Positions 8,933 to 32,145 of a DNA stretch of 32,145 nucleotides are shown in pieces. The notes below the pieces were generated by a model, which did no database searches, was not told the DNA's origin, and saw only the letters and a program-made list of their open reading frames with translations. Each line of letters begins with the position of its first letter. The first letter of the stretch is position 1. Location: assembly GCA_001783565.1 (NCBI GenBank), contig MFMT01000042.1, positions 29,408 through 61,552 on the forward strand, given 5' to 3'. The translations under genes and the position numbers were made by a program. This DNA comes from Candidatus Kaiserbacteria bacterium RIFOXYD1_FULL_42_15. GTDB taxonomy: Bacteria; Patescibacteriota; Minisyncoccia; Phycocordibacterales; UBA918.

Positions 8933-9005
8933 GTCCTGGTGGCGAAGTGGTTAACGCTACGGTTTGCAAAACCGTCATTCGTGGGTTCGACTCCCACCCA
9001 GGACT
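8933..9005 (+). tRNA. tRNA-Cys (anticodon GCA)
   Basis: Acceptor GTCCTGG pairs with CCAGGAC. The discriminator is T, as is standard for Cys. The anticodon arm ACGGT-TTGCAAA-ACCGT gives GCA at 8966-8968. T stem GTGGG/CCCAC with loop TTCGACT. CCA is not encoded; the next bases are CA. Confidence 0.96.
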
Positions 9006-9190
9006 CATTTATATAAAAACGTACATTCGTACGTTTTTATATAAATGAGTCCTGGGAGTTGTGTGCCTGCGCACACAACGTTGGGAATCGAACAGCGGAG
9101 TTATGTTTTCTCCTCTTCCCTAGAGGAGAAAACAGACGAGCTGCGTCCAGCGTTCTTATGAGCGTCAGCAAATTAGAAAAAGAGGGACGA
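9006..9190 (+). repeat. tRNA-tail element after tRNA-Cys (type II core)
   Basis: A perfect 15-bp hairpin (tatataaaaacgtac/gtacgtttttatata, 9010-9043) follows the tRNA. Then comes the reverse complement of the tRNA tail, aatgagtcctggga, split after GGGA by the hairpin gttgtgtgc/gcacacaac (9058-9080), continuing ttgggaatcgaac. A type II core follows (agcggagttatgt, hairpin ttttctcctct/agaggagaaaa, gacgagctgcgtcc ... ggac). No clear direct tail copy follows; gacgatttccacc at 9187-9199 may be a decayed one. Confidence 0.7.
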
Positions 9191-9245
9191 TTTCCACCAT
9201 AAAACAGAATCAAATTTGAAGTAAATCTAGAAAGGAGTTCCCCTT

Positions 9246-9329
9246 GCCGGGATGGTGTAATCGGTAGCCACGCAAGACTTAAAATTTTGTGGGCGCAAGC
9301 CCGTGCGGGTTCAAGTCCCGCTCCCGGCA
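9246..9329 (+). tRNA. tRNA-Leu (anticodon TAA)
   Basis: Acceptor GCCGGGA pairs with TCCCGGC, discriminator A. The anticodon arm CAAGA-CTTAAAA-TTTTG gives TAA at 9280-9282, reading Leu UUR codons. Long variable arm (tgggcgcaagcccgt), class II. CCA is not encoded; the next bases are CA. Confidence 0.96.
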
Positions 9330-9478
9330 CAATGTAATAGTACGTCAGATTTTTATCTGGCGTACTATTACATTTGCCCCAGGGACTTGAAGAGGTTGCC
9401 TGCTAGATTATGAGCTAGCGAAATAATCTAGCGACAACCTGTACTGAACTCGTAGAGTTCAAGTCCCGCTCCCGGCAC
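9330..9478 (+). repeat. tRNA-tail element 1 after tRNA-Leu(TAA) (type I core)
   Basis: A long hairpin aatgtaatagtacg/cgtactattacatt (9331-9374) is followed by a partial inverted tail (agggacttgaa), a type I core (aggttgc, hairpin gctagattat/ataatctagc, gacaacct, gtactgaactcgtagagttc) and a direct tail copy at 9457-9478 identical to the tRNA tail (gttcaagtcccgctcccggc). Confidence 0.8.
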
Positions 9479-9674
9479 AAATTAAAAACTATCATTCTTG
9501 AGAGTTTTTAATTTGTGCCGGGAAGAAAGCAAACTGCTTTGCTTTCGGGCGGGACTTGAAAGGCGGAGCGACGTGAGTTTACGAACAAGCGAGCCAGGGT
9601 CGTGAGCGATATATTTTTAAGGAGTTCACGACTATAAAAATAATCGACTCCTGACCAAGTCCCGCTCCCGGCAC
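9479..9674 (+). repeat. tRNA-tail element 2 after tRNA-Leu(TAA) (type II core)
   Basis: A hairpin (aaattaaaaact/agtttttaattt) is followed by the inverted tail gtgccggga, a hairpin insert agaaagcaaa...tttgctttc, and the rest of the inverted tail (ggcgggacttgaa). Then a type II core: aggcggagcgacgtgag, a short hairpin, gcgagccagggtcgtgag, an A/T-rich stem, and ctgacc. A second tail copy (ccaagtcccgctcccggcac) lies at 9655-9674. Confidence 0.78.
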
Positions 9675-9702
9675 AAAGTATTATTAAGAATATATAGATA
9701 GG

Positions 9703-9731
9703 TTGTCTAATTTAAATTTATCTTGTACACT
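9703..9731 (+). promoter_or_regulatory. Promoter of tRNA-Lys
   Basis: TTGTCT, 17 bases, TACACT. The -35 box is the same as for tRNA-Cys. The start would be near 9738, 14 bases before the tRNA. Confidence 0.65.
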
Positions 9732-9751
9732 TTGCTCTACCAAATATATAT

Positions 9752-9824
9752 GCGCCCTTAGCTCAGTTGGTAGAGCAGCTCCCTCTTAAGGAGACGGTCC
9801 AAGGTTCGAATCCTTGAGGGCGCA
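9752..9824 (+). tRNA. tRNA-Lys (anticodon CTT)
   Basis: Acceptor GCGCCCT pairs with AGGGCGC, discriminator A. The anticodon loop CTCTTAA gives CTT at 9785-9787. D arm GCTCAGTTGGTAGAGC and T arm AAGGTTCGAATCCTT are canonical. The outermost pair of the anticodon stem is a G-A mismatch. CCA is not encoded; the next bases are CA. Confidence 0.95.
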
Positions 9825-9835
9825 CAAAGGTAAAG

Positions 9836-9872
9836 CAAAAACACTATCATAATATGATAGTGTTTTTGTTTT
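9836..9872 (+). terminator. Terminator after tRNA-Lys
   Basis: Inverted repeat caaaaacactatcat / atgatagtgtttttg followed by ttttaaaa. It shares aacactatcata with the TA-pair terminator. Confidence 0.75.
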
Positions 9873-9886
9873 AAAAACTGAACTGC

Positions 9887-10027
9887 TTCAGTTTTGTGCC
9901 TGTGTGCGAGACGGAGCGATGTTTTTCTGCCCCCTTAGGCAGGAAAATAAGTGAGTCGGGGTAGCGAGTGCTTAGTAAAATAAAGACAAAGTATTTATTT
10001 TGGTTAGCAACTCGTGACCACACAGAT
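9887..10027 (+). repeat. Type II core element downstream of tRNA-Lys
   Basis: Contains the type II signature: gacggagcgatgt, hairpin ttttctgcc/ggcaggaaaa, gtgagtcggggt, a stem gcgagtgctta/ttagcaactcg, and gtgacc. The outer flanks gcctgtgtg and cacacag are inverted repeats, but they are not a clear copy of the Lys tail. This unit may have been mutated or inserted in another target. Confidence 0.65.
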
Positions 10028-10055
10028 ACATCTATGTGCTATACATGACATGATT

Positions 10056-10083
10056 TTGTGACTAAATGATAATGTGTTACACT
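10056..10083 (+). promoter_or_regulatory. Promoter of tRNA-Leu(TAG)
   Basis: TTGTGA, 16 bases, TACACT. The -10 box is the same as for tRNA-Lys. The start would be near 10090, 18 bases before the tRNA. Confidence 0.6.
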
Positions 10084-10107
10084 CTGTCCACACGATTTTG
10101 TGTATCC

Positions 10108-10189
10108 GCGCGAGTGGCGTAATTGGTAGCCGCGTTAGTCTTAGGAACTAATGGAGCAATCCGTGGAGGTTCAAGTCCTCTCTCGCGCA
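10108..10189 (+). tRNA. tRNA-Leu (anticodon TAG)
   Basis: Acceptor GCGCGAG pairs with CTCGCGC, discriminator A. Anticodon arm TTAGT-CTTAGGA-ACTAA gives TAG at 10142-10144. Class II variable arm (tggagcaatccgt). CCA is not encoded; the next bases are CA. Confidence 0.96.
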
Positions 10190-10339
10190 CAAAAGAAAAA
10201 CCGTCCCGCAAGGGCGGTTTTTTGACTGCGCGAGAAGTAGTGTGTGGGACACACTACGGGAGGACTTGAAGAGGTTGCCAGCTCTTTTGAAAAAAGAGCG
10301 ACAACCTGTACTGAACTCGTAGAGTTCAAGTCCTCTCTC
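10190..10339 (+). repeat. tRNA-tail element after tRNA-Leu(TAG) (type I core)
   Basis: The terminator hairpin aaaaaccgtcccgcaagggcggtttttt is followed by the inverted tail tgcgcgaga, a hairpin insert gtagtgtgt/acacactac, and gaggacttgaa. A type I core follows that nearly matches the one behind tRNA-Leu(TAA): aggttgcc, hairpin agctcttttg/aaaaagagc, gacaacctgtactgaactcg. A direct tail copy, gttcaagtcctctctc (10324-10339), is then cut off where the yigZ promoter begins. Confidence 0.78.
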
Positions 10340-10350
10340 CACATTTCCTA

Positions 10351-10847: not shown

Positions 10848-11015
10848 CACGTCTTTGCGAGTGAGAAAGTCCAGTGGACTTTCGCAAGACCTTGCCAGCT
10901 CTTTTGTAAAAAGAGCGACAAGGTGTACAGTCCCTGTTAAGGGAAAGCGCGGCAATCCACGTCCATCATCGTGTTCGTCTTCGCGAGTCGCAACGTGGCG
11001 ATCCACTTCTTCACC
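10848..11015. repeat. Dispersed repeat carrying a type I core
   Basis: Left flank cgtctttgcgag, hairpin gagaaagtccagtggactttc, then gcaagaccttgcc, inner hairpin agctcttttgtaaaaagagc, gacaaggtgtacag and tccctgttaaggga (the type I core). The right flank is gcgcggcaatccacg, then another half repeat cttcgcgagtcgcaacgtggcgatcca. The same core that follows tRNA-Leu is thus seen inside the dispersed repeat. No gene is supported in 10818-11123. Confidence 0.78.
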
Positions 11016-14378: not shown

Positions 14379-14642
14379 GAAGACGTGGATTGCTTCGCGC
14401 GACTCGCAAAGACGTTTCACTTTGTGTTCGTCTTCGCGAGGAGTGGAGTGGCAACGTGAAAAAGTGATTCAATATCACTTTGCAAGACTAGTTGAGCAGG
14501 TTTGTGAGTGAAACGAAACAAACTGGCCAACTAGTGGACAGTCCCTGTAAGGGAATGACGTGGCGATCCAGGGTGGCATGACGAACGATGTGGATTGCCA
14601 CGTTGCGACTCGCCTGTCTGCGCAGGCAGACAAAGACGGAGG
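14379..14642. repeat. Dispersed repeats with a type I core between the VirB2-like genes
   Basis: The gap 14304-14657 is filled by: acgtggattgc...ctcgcaaagacg (14380-14414); cgtcttcgcgag (14430-14441); a type I core with hairpin gtgaaaaagtgattcaatatcact, gcaagactagttg, inner hairpin aggtttgt/acaaactgg, caactagtggacag and tccctgtaaggga (about 14457-14553); the right flank gacgtggcgatccag; and ggattgccacgttgcgactcgc with the inserted hairpin ctgtctgcgcaggcag before acaaagacg (14591-14639). No gene is supported here. Confidence 0.75.
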
Positions 14643-17266: not shown

Positions 17267-17428
17267 ACGTGGATTGCTTCGTTGCGACTCGCAAAGACGT
17301 TTCACTTTGTGTTCGTCTTCGCGAGGAGCGGAGTGGCAACGGAGTGACGTGGCGATCCAGGGTGGCATGACGAACGATTTGGATTGCCACGTTGCGACTC
17401 GCCTGTCTGCGCAGGCAGGCAAAGACGA
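17267..17428. repeat. Dispersed palindromic repeats downstream of gyrA
   Basis: Copies in order: acgtggattgcttcgttgcgactcgcaaagacg (17267-17299), cgtcttcgcgag...gacgtggcgatccag (17313-17361), and ggattgccacgttgcgactcgc with the hairpin ctgtctgcgcaggcag inserted before gcaaagacg (17381-17428). The layout is almost the same as at 14380-14640 but without a type I core, so the two sites show the occupied and empty states. The sequence 17185-17266 has no supported feature. Confidence 0.75.
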
Positions 17429-26097: not shown

Positions 26098-26100
26098 AAG

Positions 26101-26610
26101 CGTGAAAAAGTGACTCAATGTTGTGTAAAATAATAAGCGTAGCGACTATATTTTTCATACATAGAATTTTTTATCCTTAATAAAAATTCTTGCACTTTGC
26201 AGCCAACTTGAGCTGGTTTGTACCCACCTTTAGCTGCGAGCAAAGCGTGGCAGGAAATAAAATAGCCAATGAGTGGACAGTCCCTGTTAAGGTGAGAAAT
26301 GTCTGGGTGAGAAAGTCCAGTGGACTTTCTCAAGAGGTTGCCTACTATTTTGCAAAAATAGCGTCAACCTGAACAGCTTCTGTATAGAAGACATTTCGCA
26401 GCCACATTGAGCTAGTTTTACCCACCTTTAGCTGCGAGCGAAGCGTGGCAGGAAATAAAGTAGCCAATGAGTGGACAGTCCCTGTTAAGGTGAGAAAAGC
26501 ATGGGATGCTTTTCGCAAGACTCATTGAGGGATTTTGTGAGTGCAACTAAACAAAATACCCAATGAGTGGACAGTCCCTGTAAGGGAGCAACGTGGTGAT
26601 CCAGGATAAT
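26101..26610. repeat. Composite of type I cores with a tandem duplication
   Basis: Two similar blocks of about 100 bp, 199 bp apart (26199 and 26398), read gcagcca...ttgagct(g/a)gttt...acccacctttagctgcgagc and end gccaatgagtggacagtccctgttaagg. Between them is a type I core like that after tRNA-Leu (aagaggttgcctactatttt...gcgtcaacctgaacagcttc). After the second comes hairpin gagaaaagcatgggatgctttt, then gcaagactcattgag...ccaatgagtggacagtccctgtaaggga and the flank caacgtggtgatccagg. Stem sequences differ while pairing is kept. Confidence 0.75.
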
Positions 26611-28829: not shown

Positions 28830-30062
28830 ATGGAACAAATAAAATCAGACGTTGAATCATTTGCACGTATCCGAGTAGTCGGCGCCGGAGGTTCTGGCAA
28901 CAATGCCGTGAACTACATGGTGTCATCAAAAGTCAAAGGAGTAGAATTTATTGCCGTCAACAGTGATGCTCAAGATTTACATCATTCACTTGCCAAGAAA
29001 AAAATTCACATTGGAAAAAATCTTACTCGTGGTCTTGGTGCTGGTGGTAATTCGGATATGGGACGCAGAGCAGCCGAAGAAACTCGTGAAGAAATTAATA
29101 ATGCCATCAAGGGTTCTGACATGATTTTTATCACTTGTGGTATGGGTGGTGGTACCGGTACTGGATCTGCTCCAGTAATCGCAAAAATTGCTCGTGACAG
29201 TGGAGCCCTAACTGTGGGTGTTGTCACCAAGCCATTTTTATTTGAAGGTCAAGAGCGAATGCGGGTTGCTATGCAAGGTATTGAAGAACTAAAGAAAGAA
29301 GTCGACGCTCTTATCACCATTCCTAATGATCGCCTTCTAGCTATTGTTGATAAAGAGACTTCAGTTCGCAGTGCTTTTGAACAATGTGATAATGTGCTCA
29401 AACAAGCAGTGGAGGGTATTTCTGACCTTATTACCATGCCTGGTATAATCAACGTTGACTTTGCCGACATCCGTAGTGTTATGGAAAATGCCGGCTCTGC
29501 TTTGATGGGAGTTGGGGTTTCTTCTGGAGAAAAACGGGCCGAGGAGGCGGCTCAATCAGCCATTAATTCCCCTCTACTTGAAGTATCTATCACGGGTGCC
29601 AAGGGAGTATTATTTGCCATTGCTGGCGGTGATGATTTGGGAATGTTGGAAATTCAAGATGCAGCTCGAGTCATTACTGAGTCAATTGACCCACAAGCAA
29701 AAGTAATCTTTGGCGCTATCAAGGATGACAAGCTAAAGAAAAATGAGGTCAAGGTTACCGTCATCGCTACCGGCTTTCCTGAAGAAACAGTTCACCAAAA
29801 CAGTATATCCAGGCGGGCACCTGTGGGTGCATCAATGGAAAATGGGGAGGAAAAAATGCCAGAAACTCGTGGTCGTATCTTTAATTCGCTTACCGCTCCG
29901 AGACGAATAGATCCAGAAGAAATGCCTATTCAGAAAAATGACTCAATTGAATCACATAAAGAATTACCCAGACGTGACCCAAAACCAGTTGATCCAGTAG
30001 ATGAGGAAGAGGACGACTGGGGCGCAGTACCTGCTTTTCTGAGAAGGTCAAAGTTGAAATAA
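28830..30062 (+). CDS. ftsZ: Cell division protein FtsZ
   Basis: Tubulin-like GTPase that forms the division ring. Seen: RVVGAGGSGNNAVNYM; the tubulin signature GGGTGTGSAP (106-115); the T7 loop NVDFADIRSVM, which supplies the catalytic Asp for the next subunit; a polar linker after about residue 320; and a C-terminal peptide WGAVPAFLRRSK that normally binds FtsA. Length 410. The order ftsA-ftsZ is the classic one. Confidence 0.96.
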   Translation: MEQIKSDVESFARIRVVGAGGSGNNAVNYMVSSKVKGVEFIAVNSDAQDLHHSLAKKKIHIGKNLTRGLGAGGNSDMGRRAAEETREEINNAIKGSDMIFITCGMGGGTGTGSAPVIAKIARDSGALTVGVVTKPFLFEGQERMRVAMQGIEELKKEVDALITIPNDRLLAIVDKETSVRSAFEQCDNVLKQAVEGISDLITMPGIINVDFADIRSVMENAGSALMGVGVSSGEKRAEEAAQSAINSPLLEVSITGAKGVLFAIAGGDDLGMLEIQDAARVITESIDPQAKVIFGAIKDDKLKKNEVKVTVIATGFPEETVHQNSISRRAPVGASMENGEEKMPETRGRIFNSLTAPRRIDPEEMPIQKNDSIESHKELPRRDPKPVDPVDEEEDDWGAVPAFLRRSKLK

Positions 30063-30105: not shown

Positions 30106-30240
30106 TCGGAGGCAGGTGCTGCGAGGCGGAGCGATATGAGTCGCCCCTTCCTAGGGCGACGAAACAGCGAGCCGTGGTCAGAAGTACTTATTAGAATTTA
30201 TACAAAGTATAAATTATAGTTAGTAACTTGTGACCCGTAC
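30106..30240 (+). repeat. Type II core element downstream of ftsZ
   Basis: A full type II core without a tRNA: gcgaggcggagcgatatgag, hairpin tcgcccc/gggcga, cagcgagccgtggtca, a stem around aatttatac/gtataaatt, and cttgtgacc. This is the best copy for comparison with the tRNA-linked type II cores. Confidence 0.75.
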
Positions 30241-30295: not shown

Positions 30296-30455
30296 GCAGC
30301 GGGGCGTAGCGGAATGACACAGCAATCTAGAGTGGCGATGTGGATTACCGCATTGTGACTCGCCTGTCTGCGCAGGCAGGCAAAGACGCGGGGGGTGTAA
30401 TCCACCATCGTCTTCGCGAGGAATGAGCTGGCAAGCGAATGACGTGGCGATCCAG
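30296..30455. repeat. Dispersed palindromic repeats upstream of the thioredoxin reductase gene
   Basis: Copies: cggaatgacacagcaatctag (30309-30330), tggattaccgcattgtgactcgc with the inserted hairpin ctgtctgcgcaggcag before gcaaagacg (30340-30388), and cgtcttcgcgaggaatgagc...gacgtggcgatccag (30410-30454). With the type II element they fill the gap 30063-30580, which holds no supported gene. Confidence 0.75.
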
Positions 30456-31864: not shown

Positions 31865-31951
31865 GGAAGAGTCGCATAGTGGTCTAGTGCACCGGTTTCG
31901 AAAACCGGCATCGGGGAAACTCGATCGAGGGTTCAAATCCCTCCTCTTCCG
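31865..31951 (+). tRNA. tRNA-Ser (anticodon CGA)
   Basis: Acceptor GGAAGAG pairs with CTCTTCC, and the discriminator is G, as usual for Ser. Anticodon arm CCGGT-TTCGAAA-ACCGG gives CGA at 31899-31901. Long variable arm, class II. CCA is not encoded; the next bases are CA. Confidence 0.96.
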
Positions 31952-32107
31952 CAGTGAATGAAATGAACGAAGGAAGAGGAGGTTGCAGCATTTTGAAAAA
32001 ATGCGTAGCAAGATTTGAAGCCCGATTGAGCTAGATTATGAGCTTGCGAAATAATCTAGCCAATTGGGGTACTGAACATGTAATGTTCAAATCCCTCCTC
32101 TTCCGCA
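31952..32107 (+). repeat. tRNA-tail element after tRNA-Ser (type I core)
   Basis: The inverted tail ggaagagga is split by a hairpin (ttgcagcatttt/aaaatgcgtagcaa) and continues gatttgaa. The type I core is almost the same as the one behind tRNA-Tyr element 1: gcccgattgagct, hairpin agattat/ataatct, ccaattggggtactgaac, atgtaatgttc. A direct tail copy (gttcaaatccctcctcttcc) lies at 32085-32107. There is no strong terminator directly after the tRNA, unlike at the other five loci. Confidence 0.82.
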
Positions 32108-32145
32108 ATGAAAAACTAGCTTTTTTTGACTTTTTTGGTATTATG

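Follow-up and report, generated by a model that had tools for sequence, protein, structure and literature searches.

A probably mobile, non-coding 96-nt element within a CGTC-type REP palindrome of a Candidatus Kaiserbacteria genome, with its empty paralogue and its wider family

Two clusters of short repeats lie about 2.9 kb apart, in different intergenic regions of the window (the whole 32,145-nt stretch analysed, positions 29408–61552 of contig C42, within a 757-kb genome of 43 contigs), and one of them holds a block of DNA that the other lacks. This raises the questions of whether the block is a mobile element seen beside an empty copy of its target, where its edges lie and how it could have moved. 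The two clusters and the parts of the block are listed below.

14384–14638, + strand: three-unit cluster of CGTC-type REPs, filled, bearing the CGTC tag and the CCA tail described in PMC3733652
14384–14414, − strand: REP unit 1 (CGTCTTTGCGAG...CAATCCACG, read on the − strand)
14429–14570, + strand: REP unit 2 (CGTCTTCGCGAG...GTGGCGATCCA), split by the 96-nt element
14591–14638, − strand: REP unit 3
14456–14551, + strand: inserted 96-nt element ('type I core'), GTGAAAAAG to CTGTAAG, from the clean gap and a 30/30 empty junction
14461–14481, + strand: hairpin 1, AAAGTGAT / ATCACTTT, from fold and alignment
14487–14535, + strand: stem A (14487–14494 with 14528–14535) enclosing stem B (14499–14505 with 14518–14524), from covariation; model R1 (below) matches at 14485–14556
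14542–14554, + strand: hairpin C spanning the right junction, with guide TCC (14542–14544), CT-GTA-AG and flank GGA (14552–14554)
17269–17427, + strand: paralogous three-unit REP cluster, empty, with its junction at 17340/17341, from alignments

Two independent alignments of the clusters both indicated a single clean gap of 96 nt at 14456–14551. With the element excised in silico, five single-base differences and one 1-base indel separate the clusters, and identity outside the gap is approximately 96–98 %. The near-identity in order and sequence reported by the first-pass annotation is therefore borne out, and the scattered differences that it had named as the contrary outcome were not what the alignments returned; its estimate of about 105 extra bases is reduced to a net insert of 96 nt. 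It had further described, inside a single genome, one locus carrying the core and one lacking it. The filled and empty states stand, but similarity between the clusters stops at the cluster edges on both ends, and they are paralogous copies of CGTC-type REPs rather than alleles of one locus. The pair does define the edges of the core, as had been proposed, to within one ambiguous G at the boundary; the insert includes hairpin 1, and the aligned ends contain no target-site duplication.

CGTC-tagged REPs are defined by CGTC at one end, a short palindromic stem, a CCA tail and many copies (Di Nocera et al. 2013, PMC3733652). The host repeats have the form CGTC-TTCGCGAG...GTGGCGAT-CCA with a short palindromic stem and high copy number, 106 REP-like stretches (some overlapping) having been counted in the sampled DNA of the genome. 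They share the CGTC tag, short stem, CCA tail and clustering with the described class, which includes RPE-4/RPE-6 and dRS3, and both are without a known dedicated transposase (PMC3733652). The 96-nt element differs from these REPs, which are its targets, in lacking a CGTC/GTAG tag, in having three structural parts and in its guide-matched 3′ junction.

The insert, GTGAAAAAGTGATTC...CTGTAAG, is flanked by AAC on the left and GGAATGACG on the right, and the empty site reads AAC/GGAGTGACG. Elements of the family are mostly 75–100 nt in length, start with GTGAG or GTGAA and finish with TGTAAG; neither a CGTC nor a GTAG tag is found at the element end, and the two ends are not inverted repeats of one another. 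Their conserved architecture is hairpin 1, GCAAGA, stem A/B, TGTAC[A/T]G and NNN-CT-GTA-AG. The curated covariance models of Rfam 15 gave nothing at 14456–14551 up to E=5.

Once joined, the two flanks of the 14456 copy matched another position of the genome at 30/30 bases, compared with about 21/30, the background level, for displaced cuts, an agreement far above chance. Uninterrupted matches of at least 26/30, some of them 30/30, were found for 14 of the 37 junctions in the genome, with displaced cuts averaging 21. The composite cluster is present four times in the DNA of this genome that was examined: empty at 17300 and in L010, filled at 14456, and filled in L034 by two tandem elements at a different point of the same REP. 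Other filled/empty pairs were L054 (CGCAC/GAAGCAATCC) with L008/L058 (30/30), and the filled REP at L009:1469 (GCGA/GGAATGAGCTGGCAAGCGAATGAC) with the empty REP at 30410 of the window. Insertion of elements into each other was also observed: in L018/L047 a second element had entered precisely at the 3′ junction of the first (30/30), and copies in L027 and at 26307 of the window are nested in the hairpin-1 loop of another element, the nested insertion matching at 29/30. In genome G013 (L084), a P-loop kinase gene is split between AAAG and GAACAG by an 85-nt copy, and its homologues are uninterrupted. All copies in the window are on the + strand, while G009 has copies on both strands. The further sites in the window are as follows.

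660–751, + strand: family member enclosed by a larger structured repeat that follows tRNA-Tyr (guide AAT, flank ATT)
10861–10941, + strand: 81-nt family element in a short-loop REP
26307–26387, + strand: element sitting inside another copy, in the loop of that copy's hairpin 1 (guide CTT, flank AAG)
26490–26584, + strand: element in tandem with the previous copy, at whose 3′ junction it sits (guide TCC, flank GGA)
30409–30455, + strand: empty REP matching the flanks of the filled REP L009:1469

A third kind of insert (TGTGTAAAATAATAAGCGTAGCGA...TAATAAAAATTCTTG) occupies the hairpin-1 loop of some elements (26127–26190, L017 and L006), forming a further level of nesting.

These elements have been mobile over evolutionary time, have exact edges, and have inserted in tandem and into one another, leaving no target duplication. 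For the locus at 14456 we consider it likely that a small, non-coding and non-autonomous mobile element was inserted precisely, without target duplication, in the middle of a CGTC-type REP palindrome, that 17340/17341 is its empty paralogue, and that it moved as DNA, in the form of a folded single strand. The element would be joined to a 3′ flank at a point where three of the flank's bases pair with NNN, with hairpin C bridging the junction, and would make use of a trans-acting activity or a general host replication/repair activity. After insertion, template switching during replication may preserve perfect pairing in the hairpins and correct either guide or target. The element is probably selfish DNA without a host function.

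The direction of the change was considered using relatives and paralogues. At the syntenic intergenic positions in relatives, 13 of them readable for one spot and nine for the other, neither cluster nor core was present, so that by sequence comparison both are lineage-specific; no relative showed the opposite state for which the first-pass annotation had proposed looking, the cluster being absent at every readable spot. The closest empty sequences are paralogues and not the ancestral locus. Uninterrupted REPs greatly outnumber filled REPs, and the empty state is therefore probably ancestral. The same excess tells against a history in which the core was present in the duplicated cluster and was then precisely excised at 17340/17341, as do the paralogues L010 (empty) and L034 (filled at a different position) and the absence of a scar at the junction. 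Since the clusters are recent duplicates the pair alone gives no polarity, and REPIN excision events have been reported in Pseudomonas (PMC3116915), but excision is improbable here. Gene conversion, with a core-bearing REP copied into the cluster and no de novo insertion of the core at this site, has a somewhat better claim, as filled REPs do recur as composites: the 81-nt core lies in short-loop REPs at 10861 and in L058, L060 and L003, and cores of the same subfamily share a REP position in L003, L004, L006 and near 26100. Some filled REPs have clearly spread as a unit, and the filled sites are not all independent insertions; because several recur in this way, the element spreads both alone and as REP cargo. 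At 14456, however, the left flank (14440–14455, GGAGTGGAGTGGCAAC) is that of the empty paralogues, whereas other filled REPs have GGCAAGC, and the spacers and the two outer units match the second cluster, so that a conversion tract confined to the core would be required. Conversion is thus an unlikely origin for this copy, and insertion of the element into an empty REP is preferred.

The distribution of the family was determined with R1, a covariance model of the core formed by stem A/B and hairpin C, the genome itself being sampled by searches and stretches. R1 gave 83 matches in this genome and was matched in 48/59 sampled relatives, in 126/297 genomes sampled from the order (Kaiser-/Zambryskibacteria-type Parcubacteria) and in 15/286 genomes sampled across the class, about half of these 15 being from the same order. 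The names on loci with the same element were Kaiserbacteria, Zambryskibacteria and Campbellbacteria, all Parcubacteria-type Patescibacteria. A viral origin was rejected, the exact element pattern being absent from the viral contigs searched with it. Among 57 distinct sequences, mostly from other genomes, 19 of the 20 pairs showed double-sided covariation and 96 % of cells were paired, values flattered by the model-fitted alignment; none of 500 shuffles reached them, and slid pairings failed. G-U pairs made up 38 % of the non-Watson–Crick cells in the element compared with 88 % in tRNA acceptor stems at the same loci, a comparison that alignment errors in stem B may affect, and by our own estimate 38 % is close to the expectation under random mutation. 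Because of this low share, pairing at the DNA level is favoured, which is suggestive of maintenance in DNA rather than RNA.

The NNN of NNN-CT-GTA-AG is complementary to the next three flank bases in 94 of 100 copies, compared with a mean of 14.6 and a maximum of 28 for permuted guides. Guides vary (CTC, TTC, TCC, CTT, ATC and others), and guide and flank change together, as between L008 (TCC/GGA) and L018 (TTC/GAA), whose elements are 94 % identical, and between L170 (CTC/GAG) and L215 (AAC/GTT), at 91 % identity. For the 14456, L009 and L054 pairs the complementary bases already exist in the empty site, and the flank was therefore not rewritten. The flank of the nested pair, and likewise of the short-loop REP class, has come to match the guide while differing by one or two bases from the nearest empty site, indicating that guide matching need not precede insertion. 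With some empty sites matching beforehand and others differing by one or two bases, prior guide–target matching and later template-switch correction are both possible. A fuller model, in which a gene-less element of about 90 nt bears a three-base guide in its terminal hairpin that helps to choose the target or is programmed by it, joins where the next three bases complement this guide and changes its guide with each target, is put forward as a speculative and, taken whole, rather unlikely reading.

The profile search for Y1, RVT_1 (reverse transcriptase) and Transposase_20 (IS110) did not yield a mobilizing enzyme. These were present in 32/57, 16/57 and 6/57 sampled genomes respectively, each was missing from many copy-rich genomes, and their presence does not track element copy number. 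Genomes G002, G014 and G044, with 13–17 copies and 99–100 % completeness, had none of the three, a result limited by their draft status and by profile sensitivity. Sequence clustering of the ORFs near copies revealed no shared transposase-like family. Only one of ten Y1 loci had cores nearby, beside tRNA-associated arrays. Separately, at L097 (G025:C36) the surroundings of a Y1 transposase gene include two degenerate cores, a tRNA-like sequence and what appears to be an intron-like insertion, and at G008:C56:1235-1928 a single IS110-type transposase match lies approximately 370 bp from a core copy.

Three other accounts of how such copies arise or persist were weighed against this background. 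Mobilization in trans by a Y1 (HUH) transposase, as an IS200/IS605- or REPIN-like element, is suggested by the five PF01797 matches in this genome and by the terminal hairpins, absent target duplication, insertion into REPs and short guide, which recall IS608/REPIN biology; pairing between complementary sequences has also been proposed for REPIN insertion (PMC3116915). The elements nevertheless have no conserved 5′ tetranucleotide (5′ flank base G 58, A 16, C 13, T 2; n=89), G002, G014, G018, G026, G033, G044 and G046 carry 4–20 copies with no PF01797 match, and the rarity of cores near Y1 loci is a further objection. The left guide of IS608 pairs with the 5′ flanking target, the opposite of the match to the 3′ flank seen here. 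Movement by a Y1 enzyme is accordingly doubtful. A considerably stronger contender, though still short of an even chance, is that quasi-palindrome (template-switch) correction of hairpin C produces the guide match once the element has inserted, the match having no role in target choice. Template switching both generates hairpin stems and repairs them (PMC8794818), the flanks of two classes depart from the empty site to fit the guide, and the inverted tRNA 3′ ends close to tRNA-type cores are consistent with fold-back copying. Several exact empty sites, however, already complement the guide and need no rewriting, and correction leaves the arrival of an 85–100 nt block at a new site unexplained. 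Retention of the block as a structured RNA (a leader, regulator or intron) is very improbable. The strong covariation would suit it, as would a resemblance of some hairpin C sequences to a Shine–Dalgarno/anti-Shine–Dalgarno pair near a gene start (L083), but the copies do not keep the same positions from genome to genome, some are inserted inside others, G-U pairs have no advantage over other mismatches and there is no Rfam match. An intron was specifically rejected for the P-loop kinase gene of L084: the joined flanks restore the frame, but the gene has another in-frame stop and G013 has a second intact copy. A scan for further gene-internal copies returned no convincing case. A non-autonomous element moving as folded DNA remains the preferred explanation.

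Non-autonomous derivatives of IS200/IS605 have terminal hairpins, no target duplication and short guide pairing. The element resembles them in the absence of target-site duplication from its exact filled/empty pairs, and differs in having no fixed 5′ tetra- or pentanucleotide, in a guide directed to the opposite (3′) flank and in that an autonomous parent was not found. It is unlike a classical MITE in lacking terminal inverted repeats and any target duplication beyond the one ambiguous G. REPINs, the GTAG REPs associated with RAYT (PMC3116915), are similarly non-coding, hairpin-forming, dispersed and non-autonomous, at about 70–100 nt; the element, in contrast, is no inverted REP doublet with a spacer but an asymmetric series of hairpin 1, stem A/B and hairpin C, has no GTAG tag, and occurs in several copy-rich genomes without a detected RAYT/Y1-type gene, one being present in its own genome and in 32/57 of those sampled. 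The short palindromic repeats and double-hairpin elements of Volvox organelles (PMC2670323) are, in the part of that account drawn on here, likewise selfish, mutually inserted, in some cases tRNA-like and nested in larger repeats. The present element is bacterial, unrelated in sequence and of a defined asymmetric architecture, and 3′-flank complementarity is not described in that part. Palindromes inserted into each other were found here too (26307–26387 and the tandem arrays), and the organellar likeness is an analogy with no claim of homology. The family is thus a previously unlisted group of miniature palindromic mobile elements, kin in kind to REPINs and nested organellar palindromes and distinct from both by its architecture and matched 3′ junction.

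The exact filled/empty pairs give the base-level edges of a mobile element in mostly uncultured bacteria whose short repeats have been little described. The 94/100 guide–flank match, together with insertion into REPs, tRNA-associated hairpins and the elements' own copies, provides a testable model for the spread of gene-less palindromes. The system could also address how CGTC-type REPs move, for which no transposase is known.

Copies associated with tRNA genes form a further group in the window.

264–335, + strand: tRNA-type core adjoining tRNA-Tyr, with an inverted copy of the tRNA 3′ end on one side and a direct copy on the other
9391–9461, + strand: tRNA-type core downstream of tRNA-Leu(taa)
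10270–10328, + strand: tRNA-type core downstream of tRNA-Leu(tag)
32019–32089, + strand: tRNA-type core downstream of tRNA-Ser

Beside tRNA genes the core is bordered on one side by an inverted and on the other by a direct copy of the tRNA 3′ end, and arrays occur in places (ends of tRNA-Tyr at 150, 331, 510 and 807). This arrangement suggests fold-back copying of the tRNA end. At 87–828, 8933–10345 and 31865–32110, tRNA genes are followed by arrays in which their own 3′ ends recur in both inverted and direct orientation, and the 3′ end of tRNA-Cys is covered by a perfect palindrome with 28-bp arms (8997–9056). Another structured repeat family (GGCGGAGCGA...GCGAGCC-AGGGTCGTGAGCGA...GACC) is also found beside tRNA ends, at approximately 420–520, 9085–9200, 9560–9660, 9905–10025 and 30120–30240. 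In relatives, the 3′ flank of gyrA carries differing palindromic inserts (L130, L135, L137 and L143) with a recurrent ...AACGCAGTAGAT/AACGAAGCAGATG motif.
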